A model generated the notes under the pieces. The model saw nothing but the letters and a program-made list of their open reading frames with translations, made no database searches and had not been told where the DNA came from. The translations under genes were made by a program, and so were the position numbers. From Hymenobacter sp. BT188 (GTDB taxonomy: Bacteria; Bacteroidota; Bacteroidia; Cytophagales; Hymenobacteraceae), in the NCBI RefSeq assembly GCF_014333585.1, contig NZ_JACSCW010000004.1, positions 124,001 to 188,000 of the forward strand: a stretch of DNA of 64,000 nucleotides, given 5' to 3'. Below, piece after piece: positions 35,856-45,203 of this stretch (its first letter is position 1; each line of letters starts with the position of its first letter).

Positions 35856-35959
35856 AAGGTGGTCATGCAGAGCAGAGCGAAGCATCTCGCGGGCTGATGC
35901 CTGGGTAGTAACCCTGGTAAACACGCGAGATGCTTCGCTCTGCTCTGCATGACCACCTT
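35856..35959. repeat. Palindromic repeat, family A, copy 3
   Basis: Arms AAGGTGGTCATGCAGAGCAG and complement, loop GGGTAGTAACCCTGGTAAAC; between convergent genes, where it may help end transcription. Confidence 0.9.
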
Positions 35960-37995: not shown

Positions 37996-38039
37996 AACCC
38001 TCCCGTAGAGACGCGTATTCGCGTCTCTACGGGAGGGTT
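37996..38039. terminator. Shared terminator hairpin (family C repeat, short form)
   Basis: A 20-bp perfect stem (AACCCTCCCGTAGAGACGCG and complement) with a 4-base loop, containing the GTAGAGACGC core of family C. It covers the 2 bases after the methyltransferase stop and the stop codon of the convergent kinase (38040-38038). Confidence 0.85.
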
Positions 38040-40257
38040 ACACGGTAGCCTTGGTCATTTCGGGGGTGGCGGGGCGGATGGCGCGTTGTGGAGCGGTGGC
38101 TAGCGGGAGACAAATAGTAAACTCGGTGTACTCACCTTCCTTCGTATCTACATCTAGCGTGCCGCGGTGGCCTTTGGTGATGATGTCGTAGCTCAGCGAC
38201 AGGCCTAAGCCTGTGCCTTCGCCAGTGGGTTTGGTGGTAAAGAAGGGCTCGAAAATGCGTTGGCGCACCTCGTCGGGAATGCCGTTGCCGTTGTCGCGCA
38301 CCTGAATCTTAACCTCTTTTTCGGTTTGCAGGGTGCGGATGATTATTTCCGGCTGATAAGCTTCACCCAACTGTTGGCGCTTCTCGGCTACCGCGTAAAA
38401 TGCGTTGGTGAGCAGGTTGATCAGCACCCGGCTCAAATCCTGGGGTACCACTTGCAGGTTGGGGAGCTGGGGGGCAAATTCGGTGGTAAGCGTGGCTTTA
38501 AAGTCCTTGTTAGCGGCCTGATAGCTGTAGTGCGCTAGGCGCAGGCACTCTTCCGCCAACATGTTCAGGTCGGTGGGCTGGGGCTGGCCGCTGCTGGCGC
38601 GGGAGTGCTCCAGCATGCTTTTCACGATGCGGTCGGCGCGGCGCCCGTGCTGATGGATGCTCAGCTGGTTATGCGACAGATCGTGCAGCAGCTCCTCAAT
38701 CGTGGCGCGGCCTCTCTCCGACAGTTTTTCTTTTGCTAGCTCCTCCTGTAGCTCCGTAGTCAGCTCCACGCCCAGGTCGGAGAAGTTGGTGATGAAGTTC
38801 AGCGGGTTCTGGATTTCGTGGGCCACGCCTGCCGTCAGCTGCCCCAGCGAGGCCAACTTCTCGTGCTGCACCAGCTGGGCCTGGGTGGCGCGCAGTTCCG
38901 TGAGGGCTTGGTCGAGGTCGTCGCGGTGAGCGGCTATGGCCAGATTCTTTTCTTTGAGCTGGCGGTTGGCGCGTTGTTTTAGAAAGACGTTGCGCAGCAA
39001 CAGACCGGCCACCAGCACCAGCCCCGCTAATCCGGCCAGCAGAGCAATGAGCTGCTGGCGCTGGCGCTCCACCCACTGCTTCTGGAGCTGGCGGTCTTTG
39101 CTGATCAGGTCAATCTGCGCCTTTTTGCGGTCCAGCTCATAGCCATAGCGTAAAGCACTAGTTCGGCGCTGAATGTCCTCCCCAGAAAGCGAATCATCGT
39201 AGGCTATTTGCAGATTGCGGTAGCGGTAAGCCTGCTCAAAATCCCGGCGCTGACCGTAGGCTTCGGCGAGCAACTGGCTGGCCATGAAAATATTGACGTT
39301 GCTGCCCGATTTTTGGCTTAGCTCCAGGGCATGATGGGCCAGGGCCAGCACGCTATCAGTTTGGTTGGCAAGCAGGTAGGCTCGGGCCAGCATCAGCTCC
39401 ACCGAGGGCAAGTTGTACGTATCCTGGGTGGCGCGCACCAGCTGGCGAGCCCGGAGGCCGTGGGCCAGCGCCTCTGCTGTGTTTCCCTGCCGACCATATA
39501 CTTCCGCAAGGTTGATCTCATCAGAGATTTCGCCCCCCACGTTGCCTAGCTTTTTGCTGAGGCGAAGGGACCGTTGGTGATAGGCAATAGCTTGGGGCCA
39601 GTTTTTGAGCGTTTGGTAGGTAGTGCCCAATCCGTTCAGGGCCATCAATACCGTCTGCTCGTCTTTGAGGCGCTGGGCATTCTTTAGCGCGGCCCGCAGC
39701 GTCGACAGCGCCTCTGTATAGTCGCCCAGCTGGCTGTAAATGTTGCCCATATTAATTTGCAGCCGCGTGCGGGTGAGCAGGTCACCGCTTTTCTCCGTCA
39801 GTGGCAAGCCCTTCAGGGCAGAAGACAGGGCTCCCGGATAATTACCCTGTAATAGGTCAATCCAGCTCATTTGCAGCCAACCTCTACCCAGACCTTCCGA
39901 GTCGTTGCGCTTGGCAAACGAGGCCTGGGCTTGCTGGGCGTAGCGGCGAGCGAGGCCGTACTTGGTTTGGCGGCGGTAGAGGATGCTCAGGGCCAACAGC
40001 GCCTCGGCCTGGCCGTCGGTATAAGCGAGCTTGCGAGCCAGCGTCAGCGCCTGCTGATTCAGCTGCATGGCCTGTGGCATATCTCCTACACGTACCGCGT
40101 GCGCCAGGGCCAGCAGGCGCTGCACACGAAGGGTATCGGCGCGGGGCTGCTGGCGCAACAGTTGGCGCAGGCTGTCAGTGGCAGCAGACGTTTGGCCCGG
40201 AGCCGGCTGCGGGAGCAGAAAAACGCTGAAAAGAAGCAGAACTACTACATGCTTCAT
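38038..40257 (-). CDS. TPR-containing sensor histidine kinase (HK3)
   Basis: 739 residues from ATG 40257, which starts the signal peptide [20 protein letters not shown]; the 40317 start adds 20 unlikely residues. About eight TPR-like repeats (residues 40-370; e.g. [40 protein letters not shown]) precede one transmembrane helix ([19 protein letters not shown]) and a coiled coil. The kinase domain has [39 protein letters not shown] and [15 protein letters not shown]. It is homologous to HK1 and HK2 but clearly more diverged. No response regulator is adjacent. Two small genes with a shared GGVxHNPP motif lie just upstream on the same strand (68-base gap) and may share its transcript. Confidence 0.92.
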
Positions 40258-40325
40258 GCTGGCGGGCACTAAGGGTAAATACGTTGCCGCGCGTGCTGGT
40301 AGGCGGTTAGCAGGCAACCGCCGCG

Positions 40326-40511
40326 CTACTCTTCGTCGATAGTGCTGGACTCCTGGCTTTGCGTAGCCTGGGGTGGATTATGCAGTACGCCACCGTCCAA
40401 GGTGGAGAGATTGACGGGCTCATCCGACGTGCTGTCGGTAGGGCGGGAGGGATCTGGGGTCGACTCCTCAGGAGCCGAGTCACTGGTGCTGGTGGTGCGG
40501 GATTTCGACAT
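40326..40511 (-). CDS. Small acidic Ser/Thr-rich protein with GGVLHNPP motif
   Basis: 61 residues, low-complexity (MSKSRTTSTSDSAPEESTPD...), no signal peptide. Near the C-terminus it carries DGGVLHNPPQ, close to the TGGVIHNPPY end of the gene just upstream (9 bases away). That shared motif, the same strand and the tight spacing are the reasons for calling it over the opposite-strand frame at 40342-40524. Function unknown. A short conserved tail shared by neighbouring small proteins could be a recognition tag or a modified-peptide core, but no modification enzyme is nearby. Confidence 0.55.
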   Translation of the reverse strand: MSKSRTTSTSDSAPEESTPDPSRPTDSTSDEPVNLSTLDGGVLHNPPQATQSQESSTIDEE

Positions 40512-40520
40512 GCTGCTTTT

Positions 40521-40934
40521 TTAATAAGGCGGATTGTGAATAACGCCGCCTGTTCTTTCGGTAAGCTCTTCTGCTTTGCTGAACTTAAATTCGGCGAACC
40601 GAAGCGTGGCTTCCACTATTTTATCCTCTCGCAAAGCCGTGACGTTGACGTCGTAGGGCTTCTTGAATCGATACCTTGAGGGCATGGCCTCATAGATTAT
40701 ATCTACAAAGCCTGCGTGGGGCACATCCGTGTAGGTGGCCGTACCGGCAATCATCGAATCACCTGAATTTATAACATACAGTATTTCACCTTTTTCCAGC
40801 TGAAAAGCGGCCGTAAAATGATTCGGGTCTTCGAGTCGCTTAGAGGTCTCGCTGAATGCGTCAACGTAAATCTGCCACTCGTCAGATGGCACTGGAAACT
40901 CTATGATGTCTGGATTTCCTTCGGTGAGCGCCAT
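40521..40934 (-). CDS. Hypothetical protein ending in TGGVIHNPPY
   Basis: 137 residues, soluble and acidic. Sequence features: IIEFPVPSDEWQIYVDAFSE, HFTAAFQLEKGEILYVINSG, DVPHAGFVDIIYEAMPSRYR, a predicted mixed alpha/beta fold and a C-terminal LTERTGGVIHNPPY. No family is recognised. It heads a probable operon with the 61-residue gene and perhaps HK3. An AT-rich region upstream (40935-41040) is the likely promoter. The rest of the gap to 41200 shows no gene. Confidence 0.7.
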   Translation of the reverse strand: MALTEGNPDIIEFPVPSDEWQIYVDAFSETSKRLEDPNHFTAAFQLEKGEILYVINSGDSMIAGTATYTDVPHAGFVDIIYEAMPSRYRFKKPYDVNVTALREDKIVEATLRFAEFKFSKAEELTERTGGVIHNPPY

Positions 40935-41200
40935 AGGTAGAATAGCTGAGGTGATAATAACTATTAATGTATACTAATATTAGAAATAATACAAAAAAAT
41001 ATTGTGTTGTTTATATGTAAATCAAATTATGCTATTGGGCTTATTCATTGTCTTGCGCCGCGATGAGCCGCCACGCACGCTCATGCTTTTCTCCTCTGAT
41101 AATGTTGCGCCTATAGCTGAATGAGGCTGTTTTCACGAAGCGAAAACAGGGGCGTTTGATTCGTTGCGGATGGTGTTCAGAAGGTGGCGATTATGCAGAT

Positions 41201-41310
41201 AAAAGAACGTCATGCAGAGCAACGCGAAGCATCTCGCGTGCTGATGTGAGGTTAGTAACCCACCGTCAGCACGCGAGATGCTTCGCGTTGCTCTGCATGA
41301 CGTTCTTTTT
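41201..41310. repeat. Palindromic repeat, family A, copy 4
   Basis: Very long near-perfect arms (AAAAGAACGTCATGCAGAGC... and complement ending TTCTTTTTT), loop GTGAGGTTAGTAACCCACC. Followed by AAAAAAGCCCCCCAG at 41314-41328 and then a family E unit. Confidence 0.92.
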
Positions 41311-41417: not shown

Positions 41418-44400
41418 TTAGGCGGCGTAGGTGCCTTCTTCGGTGGGGCGCAAGAGGCTGAGGGCGGTGAGGGTGTCGAGGAGGGGCTGCACTTTCTCGG
41501 GGCGGGTGCGGCGGAAGCGGGCGGCTACTTGGGCGGCCGTGAGGGGTTGGGGGGACTGTTGCACGGCGTCGCGGACGGCTTGCATTTGTTGGGCTAGCTC
41601 AGTGGGCCAGGGCTGGGGGCCGGTGGCCTCGGTGGGGGAGGCGGTAGCGGCGGCGCTGGGGGGCAAATTCAGGGCGGATTGCTGCTGATCGGGGGCTTGG
41701 TAGGCGGGGCGCAGGTAGCGGACGTGGCCGGCTTGCTCTTCGCGGGCGCGCTCGTGGTTGAGGCGCACAAGGCGGGTGAGAATATCGGCGTCGGGGAGGT
41801 CGGGGGGGCAGTTGTAGGCTTCGGCCACGGCCGCGTCGAGCTGCTGGTGGAGGCTGAACACCACGGAGGCCAGGCCCTGCTGGTTGATGGTGTGCTCTTT
41901 GGCCGTGGCCAGGGGCTGACCGGCGCGCAGCTTCTCGACCACGTTGTAGAGGTCGGTGAGGGTGAGGCTGGGGTGCAGGGCCTGCTGGCGCTTGCGGTGG
42001 GCGTCGAGCTGTTCGGCCAACTCCCGGATGCGCGCCTGCTGCTCCGCCGTGGCGGCAGGGAAGGGGAACGGGTCGAAACAACGCGTTTTGTTGTAACGAG
42101 GAGTATTTCCTCCTAAGTCACCGCCAGTTGCTAGCGCCCAAACATTATGAAATCTACTTGATAATACGCCCAGATAATATGCATCATCCAAAGCTATTGC
42201 AATCAGCATATTATCAGGAAGGATATCTGCTTCTAGAAATTGAAACGTACGGTGTTTAGCGGTTTCTACCGTAGCAATGTATCGAGGCAAGCTATTCAAA
42301 GCTGGTCGGAAACTGCTCCGAGCTTCACCAAAAATCCACCAATTATCTCTGTAAGACGCTCGATTATTCTGGTCACGCTCAGGTTTAACGGTTTCAAATA
42401 GGTGCTGATATACAGCAGGGAACCTTTCAAGCACATTAGGTAATGACAGCCCAAATAAATCAATTATAAAAACACCACGTGGTTTATCAGCGAGGTCTTT
42501 CCCATTGCGATAAGGACGAATATGCTTATCGAGCCCAGTGATTGTTCCTAATCCTAAATTATTGGCCCGTTCTAGCGTAACTATGAATCCCGCTCCATGA
42601 AGCTTAACACCTGGATTTGAAAGGCCTGCATTGGATTTCAACAGCTTTGCACTGTCTAAATCTGCTCCAATTGTTAAGTCAGGAAGAATCCGGCCTTGTT
42701 GGTTAGAAAAAGTGACTTCAGAAGCTTCTTCTCCTTCTGATACTGTCTCAGTTCTCGGCGTAAGCAATTGACCAAAAAGCGGAGTACCCTGGGTTCGTTC
42801 AGCCACGGTCATTGCAATTCGTACCGCAGCCCCATCACCACTTTCCACCCACGGATGGTCGGGAATGGCGAAGGTGAGCGTGAGCGGGGCCGGTTCGCCT
42901 TCCAGGAAAGGCTGCATCACGCGGCGGTTGAAGGTTTGCTTGAGGCTGTTGGTGGTGATGAAGCCAAACCGCTCAGCGGGGCCGCGCTGCACGGCGGCCG
43001 CAGCATTGTACCACCAATACATCACGAGGTCGGCCGAGTCGGGCACTTTGCCTTTGTAGGCTTTGCGCAGGGCTTCGGTGTAGCCGTCGCCGAGGGCATC
43101 GCGCATCCGGGCCGGGCCCACAAACGGCGGATTACCGACAATAAAATCGGCTTCGGGCCACGCGGCGGGCTTGGGGTTGGGATAATCGAAGACGGCGGTG
43201 CGGGCGGTTTCGTCGGGGATGGGCTGGCCGGTGGCGGGGTGGAGGCGGGTGGTGCCGTCCCAGCGCGTCACGGGGAGGCCGTGGGCATCGAAGCGGGGCA
43301 CGGGCGGGTCGTGCTGGAGGGCGGCATCCTGCTGGCGGATGTTCTGGTACTCATCCAGCAGGGGTTCGGCTAGCTGCGTGACGCCGTGGGTGCGCAGGTG
43401 CCATTGCAGGTAGCCGATGCGCAGCACCACGTCGGCAATGGCGGCCGCGCGCGGGTTTAGCTCCAGCCCCAGCAGTTGGCGCGGACTCACGGTGGTGCCG
43501 CCGCCCAAATCGAGCAGGCCCGTGTGGCCGTAGCTGTTGATGGCGGCCAGTACTTCGCCCTCCAGGCGCTTGAGGTGCTCCAGCGTGACGTAGAGGAAGT
43601 TGCCGGAGCCGCAGGCCGGGTCGAGGATGCGAATGGAGGTAAGCCGGTTGAGGAAGCGGACCAGCTCGGCGCGGGCTTCTTTGGGCTGGCCTTCGTCGAG
43701 GCGACGGGCGCCGGCGGCCTGCGTTGCCGCCCACTCGCGGCGCAGGGGCTCCAGCACCGTGGGCAGCACCAGGCGCTCTACGTAGCGGCGCGGGGTGTAG
43801 TGGGCGCCCAGGCTGTGGCGCTCCTTGGGGTCGAGGGCGCGTTCGAGCAGGGTGCCGAAGATGGCGGGCTCCACCTCGGTCCAGTCGGCTTCGGCGGCTT
43901 TGAGCAGCAGCTGCATCTGGTCGGTGGAGAGGGGCAGGGCCGTGGCATCATGAAACAGCTTGCCATTGAAGCGGCGCAGGCGGGCCTTGAGGTCGGGCGA
44001 AAAGCCCCCCAGGTCCATAGTGCGCCACAGTCCGGCCAAGGCATCGGGCAGAAACTCGCGCATCTCGGGGGTGGAGTAGGTGCGCAGCATGCCCGTAAAG
44101 GAGGTTTTGGGAATGAGCCCCACATCCTCCGAAAACATAGTAAACAGGCAGCGCATCAGAAACTGCGCCACCACATCGGGCGCGTGCCCGGCCCGCTCCA
44201 GCTGGGCCGATACGCCGGCCAGGTAGCCGGCCAGCTCCCGCGTCACGCGGGCCGCGCGGCGGCTGGGGTCCAGCTCGCGCGGCTCGGTGAAAAGCTGGCG
44301 CAGCATGGCGCGGGTGCCTGCATCGGCCAGGGCTGAGAGCGGCAGCCGAAACCGCGACTGGTCGGGAAACGGCACAAACGAGTCGCCGACGCCGGCGAAG

Positions 44401-44876
44401 TTGGAGTACACATCGAGGCAGTAGCCCACGTCGGCCACCAGCACAAACAGGGGGCGAGGCTCATCGGCGGGCAGGGCGCGTACGTAGCCGAGGGCCTGCT
44501 GGCGGGCGGCCTGCATCATCTGTTCCCACTTGGCGGAGCCGCGCACGGCGTGGCCCTTGCGGCGAGTGGTGGCGGGCAGGCCCAGCTCGGCGCGCTCCAG
44601 CTTTTGCTGTTGGTCGGGGGTGTCGGTGCCTTGCTTGGTTTCGAGCACAAAGCAGCCGCGCTTATACAGGTCGATGCGGCCGGTGCTTTTCTTGGCGCCG
44701 TCGTTGAACTGCACGGCCCGCTCCAGCACGTAGGCATCCTGGGCGGGGTTGTCGGTAGTGGGGTCGGGCTTCGGGACTTCTAATAAATCGCAGAGGTCTT
44801 GGAGGAAGAGGCCATAGTTGGCCCGCTCCGCGCCGCCGGCCGGGCGCCAGCGGGCTTCAAATTCGGGATAAGTCAC
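41418..44876 (-). CDS. MmeI-like single-chain restriction endonuclease/methyltransferase (type IIL)
   Basis: 1152 residues from GTG 44876. This start is preferred because upstream codons lie in repeat DNA and because it places the nuclease motif D-x9-E-x-K ([13 protein letters not shown]) at residues 69-81, as in MmeI. Order: nuclease domain, helical spacer, N6-adenine methyltransferase with SAM motif [17 protein letters not shown] (about 417) and catalytic motif NPPF in [14 protein letters not shown] (about 580), then target-recognition domain (about 680-930) and C-terminal helices ([28 protein letters not shown]). Such enzymes methylate one strand of their site and cut at a distance. The recognition domain (about 42090-42840) is visibly lower in GC than both flanks, suggesting module exchange. 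No separate methylase or endonuclease is adjacent. Confidence 0.92.
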
Positions 44877-44931
44877 GAGGGATAAGTCGGTCGGTAGAAA
44901 GGGGGTGGGAAGATAGGGAGGATTGGCTGAT

Positions 44932-45203
44932 GTGGGCCTCACCCCCCGGCCCCCTCTCCTAGGGGAGAGGGGGAGCCTGACGACAGTCGTTCTACGCCGC
45001 ACTTTCGGCTTGCGCCTCAAGCACGGCTACCGTATTTTATTCATCATAAAAAAGCCCCCCAGAAAGGTTCTGGGGGGCTTTTTTATGATGTCTTCACTGG
45101 GTTGTTAACAACTCGGTAGCCGTGCTTGAGGCGCAAGCCGAAAGTGCGGCGTAGAACGACTCCCCCTCTCCCCTAGGAGAGGGGGCCGGGGGGTGAGGCC
45201 CAC
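44932..45203. repeat. Large inverted repeat, family D, around a terminator
   Basis: Left arm 44932-45032 and right arm 45114-45203 are complementary over roughly 85-90 bases, including CACGGCTACCG, GCTTGCGCCTCAAGC, GGCGTAGAACGA and the CCCCCTCTCCTAGG / GGGGAGAGGG block; the left arm has an extra ~10 bases (CTGACGACAG). The centre holds the terminator at 45042-45089. Confidence 0.9.
45042..45089. terminator. Bidirectional terminator built from an inverted oligomer pair
   Basis: CATCATAAAAAAGCCCCCCA pairs with TGGGGGGCTTTTTTATGATG. It separates the reverse-strand SGNH gene from the reverse-strand MmeI-like gene. Confidence 0.92.

Follow-up and report, generated by a model that had tools for sequence, protein, structure and literature searches.

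An HNP tail shared by a predicted VOC-like protein and an acidic companion upstream of a TPR histidine kinase in Hymenobacter

Accessory proteins that regulate sensor kinases tend to be discovered singly. In Bacillus, the sporulation kinases KinA and KinB are inhibited by both KipI (240 aa) and Sda (46 aa), and the target of each is the DHp (HisKA) portion of sensor kinases (PMC8534201). The Hymenobacter locus described here is analogous in that it combines a larger, apparently folded protein with a tiny one as two unlike candidate inputs, and a contact with the DHp part would be a putative further likeness. KipI is cyclophilin-like and Sda is helical, unlike the Hymenobacter pair, and we know of no tail shared by KipI and Sda nor of a site for them directly upstream of a kinase. 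Kinases of the VbrK/VxrA type in Vibrio carry an extracytoplasmic TPR-like domain that is assumed to bind a separate sensing protein (PMC8534201). The kinase at our locus, HK3, is likewise a sensor kinase with a TPR region that is extracytoplasmic by prediction; the Vibrio kinases differ in being PAS-like plus TPR-like, and the part of the source that deals with them describes no VOC partner (PMC8534201), whereas the VOC-like proteins of the HK3 clade in Hymenobacter seem to be cytosolic.

The larger protein of the pair is compared here with the VOC (glyoxalase/bleomycin-resistance) superfamily (PF00903), whose mitomycin- or bleomycin-binding and Fos proteins have alpha/beta units like those predicted for it. 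Most VOC members hold divalent-metal ligands in beta1 and beta4 of both units (PMC8195603). The Hymenobacter family differs in having no conserved metal ligands and a Gly at the Glu of DPDGNxxEL, as well as an invariant HNP tail and a steady linkage to a kinase. The unusual feature here is one tail on unlike carriers, within what is probably a kinase accessory module, itself of a known kind. In the open-access literature, we found no module of VOC-like tailed protein and TPR kinase, nothing on Hymenobacter that joins a histidine kinase with TPR or glyoxalase with tetratricopeptide and, for the tail strings, no match but a chance one in a text of 1829.

Locus layout and the shared motif

The window, meaning the whole stretch of 64,000 nucleotides analysed, contains two small ORFs and a kinase gene, for which the first-pass annotation had named no strand. 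All three lie on the minus strand and are transcribed in the order 137-aa gene, 61-aa gene, HK3 gene:

40521..40934, minus strand: gene that opens the module; 137-aa protein, VOC fold by prediction, metal site not conserved
40524..40550, minus strand: tail GGVIHNPPY of the 137-aa protein (strand 127-133 of the predicted model plus NPPY)
40326..40511, minus strand: 61-aa companion, acidic (net charge -9) and low-complexity, without a VOC body
40371..40394, minus strand: copy of the tail, GGVLHNPP, in the 61-aa companion
38038..40257, minus strand: sensor histidine kinase HK3 (ATG start at 40257; a TTG start at 40317 is possible)

Nine bases separate the small ORFs, and 68 bases lie between the 61-aa stop and the kinase ATG at 40257, in agreement with the first-pass annotation. 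It had also called the motif C-terminal in both proteins, which is correct for the 137-aa protein, whose ORF ends in ERTGGVIHNPPY before the stop, but not for the 61-aa protein, in which 14 residues follow HNPP (ORF end, motif included, LDGGVLHNPPQATQSQESSTIDEE before the stop). The motif GGNGGNNTNNTNCAYAAYCCNCC occurs in the organism's own 5.0-Mb genome at these two sites only, against 0 occurrences for a reversed control. The gene pair with both motifs recurs in four further species, G010 (with a broken larger frame), G102, G103 and G140 (G and L numbers are our own handles for genomes and loci), and the motif codons of the two genes differ silently at 5 of 7 shared residues here and at 7 of 7 in G103. 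Because of this uniqueness in the genome, the recurrence in four species and the silent codon differences, the sharing of the motif is more than chance. The remainder of the two proteins is unlike, as had been noted, since a profile built from the larger proteins aligns with the 61-aa one at nine motif residues and nowhere else (probability 60, E 8e-5). Neither protein has a significant match in Pfam or NCBIfam.

An MmeI-like type II restriction-modification gene (PF20473, PF20464, PF20465, PF20466) lies at 41418-45020 on the minus strand. Such a gene or a fragment of one adjoins the locus in 9 of 60 other neighbourhoods, which belong to different kinase clades (L050, L052, L053, L055, L056, L159, L185, L044 and L046), and an MmeI-like match is present in 62 of 120 genomes, by eye mostly elsewhere in the genome; the adjacency may stem from a common site of insertion or from a functional connection. 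A long inverted repeat at 41200-41310 (GCAGAGCAACGCGAAGCATCTCGCGTGCTGA at 41214, its complement at 41266) has single-arm copies in the window at 35867, 50729 and 62343 and also in L042 and L051 (at most 3 mismatches), and it looks like a dispersed REP-like element.

Linkage of tailed genes to one kinase lineage

HK3 matches TPR_12, HisKA and HATPase_c in Pfam and, with the latter two domains, is a histidine kinase; its architecture runs from an N-terminal hydrophobic signal-like segment through a TPR region and one further TM segment to HisKA and HATPase_c. HK3 has matches at E<=1e-150 in 50 of 120 genus genomes and none at E<=1e-120 in 32 genomes of other genera of the family, in a search run without a positive control. 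Loci were mapped with a simple ORF script and gene order was judged partly by eye. A tailed gene lies upstream of, and in line with, the HK3 orthologue in 18 of 20 neighbourhoods, the exceptions being L044 and L058. Across kinases 57-100% identical to HK3, an ORF with an HNP tail stands upstream at 30 of 31 loci. The sole exception, L169, has a TNPPFP end and a C-terminal hydrophobic segment.

The association extends in altered form to the next kinase group (47-54% identity), for which we covered 25 of 32 matches, leaving out G073, G131, G095, G027:C30, G008:C119, G100 and G072:C103. At these 25 loci, 19 upstream proteins end in G[VL]xxNPx[YF]P or close to it, 2 have degenerate forms and 4 have no tail. 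Two of the four tail-less loci have an ABM-domain protein instead, with Pfam scores just over and just under the cut-off. Paralogous kinases (41-43%) have a tail at 0 of 3 loci. We refer below to proteins of the HK3 lineage as HNP proteins and to those of its sister clades as xNP proteins. In a tree of 58 kinases, which leaves out L060 (whose kinase is two ORFs), L044 and L058, all 29 HNP rows fall on one side of a single branch (100/99), and 0 of 500 shuffles were as low as the HNP grouping. The other tail forms follow kinase clades as well: NNP[IV]Y corresponds to one clade (9 rows), NPDYP to one (3 rows) and xNPP[YFV]P, its two degenerate forms included, to one (9 rows), with L169 and the tail-less rows standing apart.

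Several loci depart from the simple arrangement. Tailed proteins of a C-type, ending in [EV]C[VI][IV]HNPNW, stand away from any orthologous kinase at L044:8001-8417, L058:7606-8021 and L050:8001-8423 (the first of L050), and in L058 and L044 they adjoin a DUF2652 protein or its 79% identical relative; in L046, L061 and L159, by comparison, a C-type gene is the first gene of the kinase module. A LuxR-type response regulator, named by eye, precedes the C-type gene of L058, and we dropped a response-regulator link because tblastn over 60 neighbourhoods gave a close match in L058 alone (distant matches, 23-33% identity, in L174, L176, L178 and L188). At L174, L176 and L178, a single kinase is preceded by as many as three VOC-like genes whose products end in NPD[YF]P, some with a C-terminal hydrophobic segment and others without, and tandem VOC-like partners also occur in the NNP clade, for example three in L171-L173. 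The ABM-domain proteins (PF03992) before the kinase at L179:3614-3913 and L188:5227-5526 are 99 aa long and not VOC-like, and score just under and just over the cut-off. Frames are broken in the VOC gene of G010 (L051:7609-8021) and the C-type gene of G004 (L058:7606-8021), and the G140 kinase is split into two ORFs (L060:5401-7619); these breaks are either true decay or assembly error.

The DNA pattern for [VI]HNPx[WYC]-stop has 27 matches in 22 of the 120 genus genomes (reversed control, 14). Of these, 24 terminate related ORFs, which span 131-158 aa unless the frame is broken (as in G010 and G004), and 3 are spurious (L018, L019, L029). Beyond the genus, the pattern NTHCAYAAYCCNMMNTRBTRR gave raw matches in 55 of 390 genomes at the level of the order and in 50 of 395 at that of the phylum, both counts taking in the genus itself, and we considered frames of at least 50 residues ending in HNPx[WYC] among the matches listed. 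None of these was a convincing tailed ORF outside Hymenobacter: among the matches listed, L067 (120 residues, no ATG), L090 (70 residues, no ATG) and L108 (a 47-aa basic ORF from the first ATG, with an IHNPPY end) were read as chance. A scan of a named genome collection for the GVI form only (GGNGTNATHCAYAAYCCNMMNTRBTRR), in which the organism's own record is possibly not included, gave 14 stretches; the 10 from Hymenobacter are ends of this VOC-like protein family, and the other 4, in frames of at most 45 residues, are chance matches.

Predicted fold and carriers of the tail

The first-pass annotation had missed that the tail of the larger protein is, by prediction, the last strand of a VOC-like fold. 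The AF2 model of the 137-aa protein (12 sequences; pLDDT 78.9, pTM 0.73; five models, from 78.9 down to 51.0) contains the two beta-alpha-beta-beta-beta units of that fold. The first comprises E10-15, H17-30, E41-45 and E51-56, one strand short by DSSP, and the second E66-70, H74-83, E89-102, E105-118 and E127-133, followed by a coil end. All 50 Foldseek rows shown are VOC-type proteins, most by their names (2kjz and 1xy7 bear no family name, and we take them to be VOC); the top row, 3rri_A (E 7.7e-4), is the only one of those shown at E<=0.001, and TM-scores are low, about 0.33. Most VIA rows are VOC by name (2i7r, 3ghj, 4pav and 6p29 are named otherwise), with half-domains superposing on VOC chains at about 2 A in alignments that are mostly half-domain; the best, 1kll, has Z 8.0 over 57 residues, that is, a half-domain, which is modest by the tool's own note.

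Profile comparisons with relatives point in the same direction, and matches to curated VOC models are mixed. Our HNP alignment, A1, is built from 18 full-length sequences out of about 34 HNP proteins; poor alignment kept out the C-type, half-VOC, L164 and clade C proteins, four of which were compared singly with the A1 profile. Against PDB sequences, A1 finds the VOC chains 3rhe_A (E 0.0064) and 4n04_A (E 0.094); its top match, the designed TPR protein 7obi (E 0.00017), was ignored as one weak helix match repeated. The xNP profile A2 gave nothing meaningful against PDB sequences, and nothing at E<=1 in the organism's own genome in a search without a positive control. With tails aligned, A1 matches the xNP profiles A3 (probability 94.5, E 8.2e-8) and A2 (probability 79, E 1.6e-5), and the xNP families match each other at probability 98.1 (E 1.1e-13). 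The xNP proteins at L180, L193 and L171 pass the PF00903 cut-off, with a match that stops where GVxNNP starts, and at E<=0.1 this model is matched by 6 of the 16 proteins in A2; for most of the other proteins scanned there was no match at all. In Pfam, the 137-aa protein has no VOC match and only one of the 18 A1 members has one (E 0.064), and for the L043 protein VWA_2 fits better than VOC (E 0.0031, under its cut-off). Compared singly, a clade C protein aligns with the HNP profile along its whole length, tail included (probability 94.5), and a C-type protein matches it in the first unit (probability 96.7).

Although a VOC fold is predicted, VOC catalysis probably is not retained. The only invariant positions in the 18 rows of A1 are W20, G130, H133, N134 and P135, so that no H, E, D or Q is invariant except H133, which lies three residues past the usual Glu position, itself occupied by Gly (G130). 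Because the metal ligands are not conserved and Gly stands at the usual Glu, we infer that the 137-aa protein is a VOC-fold pseudo-enzyme and not a VOC enzyme. The protein is under selection, with dN/dS of 0.08-0.23 in 4 of 6 pairs, the other 2 being not computable.

In alignments, the tail falls on the terminal strand of canonical VOC relatives (DPxGNxVGVxNNPxY), and it forms a strand in the AF2 model. This raises the alternative that the motif is purely structural, serving as last strand and turn in folding or dimer packing, with the small ORFs as remnants of duplicated VOC genes in which the segment persists through common descent. The distribution of the tail across carriers bears on this directly, since its carriers include complete VOC proteins, half-VOC proteins of 76 aa and the separate acidic companions. 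The 76-aa proteins of three species match the HNP profile over the first VOC unit only (columns 16-67, probability 96, E 4.8e-9), yet they end in (V/I)AGVIHNPNI, with dN of 0.05-0.08 against dS of 0.43-0.59. The L164 protein consists of a first VOC unit (probability 91), then an acidic stretch, then the tail GVIHNPNF.

Separate acidic or low-complexity companions with the motif occur at 10 loci, with net charges of -4 to -12. They follow the VOC gene and have 61-69 aa in G000, G010, G102, G103 and G140 (61 aa in the G010, G102 and G103 counterparts, 69 aa in G140), follow it with 122 aa in G124, and precede it with 42-48 aa in G114, G092, G012 and G071. The 61- and 69-aa companions have dN/dS of 0.20-0.48 in 9 of 10 species pairs, those that were computable, and over the nine companions of 61-69 aa and 42-48 aa the range is 0.20-0.55 where computable; these companions, the 61-aa frame among them, are under purifying selection. 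The 69-aa G140 companion resembles the others in little beyond NGGVLHNPP. Companion motifs tend to mirror those of their own VOC partners: D-HNP with D-HNP in G092 and G012, G-HNP with G-HNP in G071, and HNPNYP on both carriers in G124; in G114 the two motifs differ, and at L161 the residue preceding HNP differs between the carriers (I, S). In the kinase tree, G124 groups with four clade C loci (95/93), and the companions therefore need at least two origins or several losses.

The tail thus survives without its fold: half-VOC proteins retain it with no second unit, and the acidic companions have no VOC core into which it could pack, which argues against a purely structural role. So do the codons: of the 64 tail residues shared at the ten companion loci, 37 are encoded differently in the two genes, while the rest of the sequence drifts. 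Per locus, these differences range from 7 of 7 in G103 down to 1 of 6 in G124 and G012 (L160 and L163), and the near-identity at the last two speaks for the structural alternative and would also fit recent copying. Within the organism's own genome, 0 of 15 PF00903 matches (fewer proteins, as some have two) carry an NPx[YWFI] tail in that place, again counter to a structural requirement, the nearest approach in its favour being L207, with DNPGF in a slightly shifted place. Taken on both sides, we consider a purely structural motif unlikely, though the most serious of the competing explanations.

A candidate docking module

The suggestion in the first-pass annotation that the tail is a tag for a common partner has gained ground: the HNP tail lies upstream of one kinase lineage, its variants track kinase clades, and it is kept when its domain is halved or absent. 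These patterns suggest a docking tag for a shared partner, and that partner is probably the kinase, although gene linkage and parallel phylogeny can also arise through co-inheritance without contact. The three C-type proteins standing away from an orthologous kinase, and the differing residue before HNP in the two carriers of L161, count against this reading.

Where such a contact would take place depends on cellular location. The TPR region of HK3 should be periplasmic, as a signal-like segment precedes it and a TM segment follows. On a plain 17-residue Kyte-Doolittle mean, with at least 1.75 counted as strong (a hydrophobicity measure, distinct from a signal-peptide predictor), strong hydrophobic segments were found in 1 of 33 HNP carriers (those of 70-260 aa) and in 27 of 38 xNP proteins, where they sit near the N- or C-terminus and are signal- or anchor-like; the one HNP case arises from an upstream start codon. 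The first-pass proposal of a secretion signal fares poorly on this count. Since they mostly have no strong segment, the HNP carriers are probably cytosolic, and with the TPR region out of reach their tails would bind the cytosolic half of the kinase. HisKA is richer in positions fixed differently in HNP and xNP kinases (4 of 86) than the TPR region is (2 of 380; p 0.012, nominal, as kinase and protein rows are related), whereas residues conserved solely in HNP kinases are not concentrated there (4 of 86 versus 15 of 380). With six residues in all, the HisKA enrichment is a hint of tail contact with the cytosolic half, no more.

The same scan weighs on the idea that both small proteins are precursors releasing a peptide, either a signal or a modified core, which the periplasmic TPR domain would sense. 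One short sequence does occur on two proteins encoded beside a sensor, and TPR domains elsewhere bind short C-terminal peptides, as in RRNPP regulators and with the MEEVD of Hsp90. Against this, 32 of 33 HNP carriers are without the strong hydrophobic segment expected of an RRNPP-like secreted pheromone, the exception again being due to an upstream start codon. Neither NCBIfam nor Pfam gave a significant match to a peptide precursor model, and Pfam identifies the five large neighbours examined in the window as kinase, MmeI-like restriction-modification enzyme, superoxide dismutase, O-methyltransferase and GDSL lipase, none of them a maturase or other modification enzyme. The modified-peptide core proposed at first therefore finds no backing, and a peptide signal of either kind seems very improbable to us.

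A further possibility is that the tail is a degron-like handle for proteolysis or an adaptor, coupling the stabilities of its carriers, with the kinase linkage reflecting a shared regulon only. The exact C-terminal position of the tail in most VOC carriers would suit such a handle, and low-complexity acidic proteins are often unstable. In the 61- and 69-aa companions, however, the motif is internal, with at least 14 residues behind it, and the tail variant tracks the kinase clade, both of which speak against a degron; we rate this explanation as improbable.

The explanation we favour, with a confidence that we would put at about even, is that the two small genes and HK3 form a small regulatory module of a sensor kinase, in which a VOC pseudo-enzyme regulates HK3, its tail is a docking motif and the acidic protein is a second carrier. 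The 137-aa protein would probably bind a small molecule, its ligand being conjectural, or act purely as an adaptor. The tail, which has the form (G)(V)(I/L)HNP(P/N)(Y/W) and would stem from the last VOC strand, would be a short docking motif for a co-evolved partner, on the genetic evidence probably the adjacent TPR histidine kinase. In the sister clades, the equivalent VOC proteins mostly bear a signal- or anchor-like hydrophobic segment; as the HNP proteins have none and are probably cytosolic, tail docking may have replaced membrane targeting in the HNP clade. The 61-aa acidic protein, with the same motif and no VOC body, would fill the same dock as a competitor or a second input. A more tentative extension, to which we give distinctly less credence than to the module itself, is that the HNP tail is a transferable linear docking motif, kept on or passed to half-domains and acidic disordered chains, so that unrelated proteins would compete at one kinase dock and integrate inputs there.

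Within a single genus, about thirty naturally occurring variants of the kinase and its partner protein are available for comparison. Were the tail not a dock, it would be an unusual case of a C-terminal strand retained after the loss of its fold. If it is a dock, these loci would constitute a natural experiment on how a structural element turns into a transferable interaction motif, and would provide the first candidate input for this family of TPR kinases.
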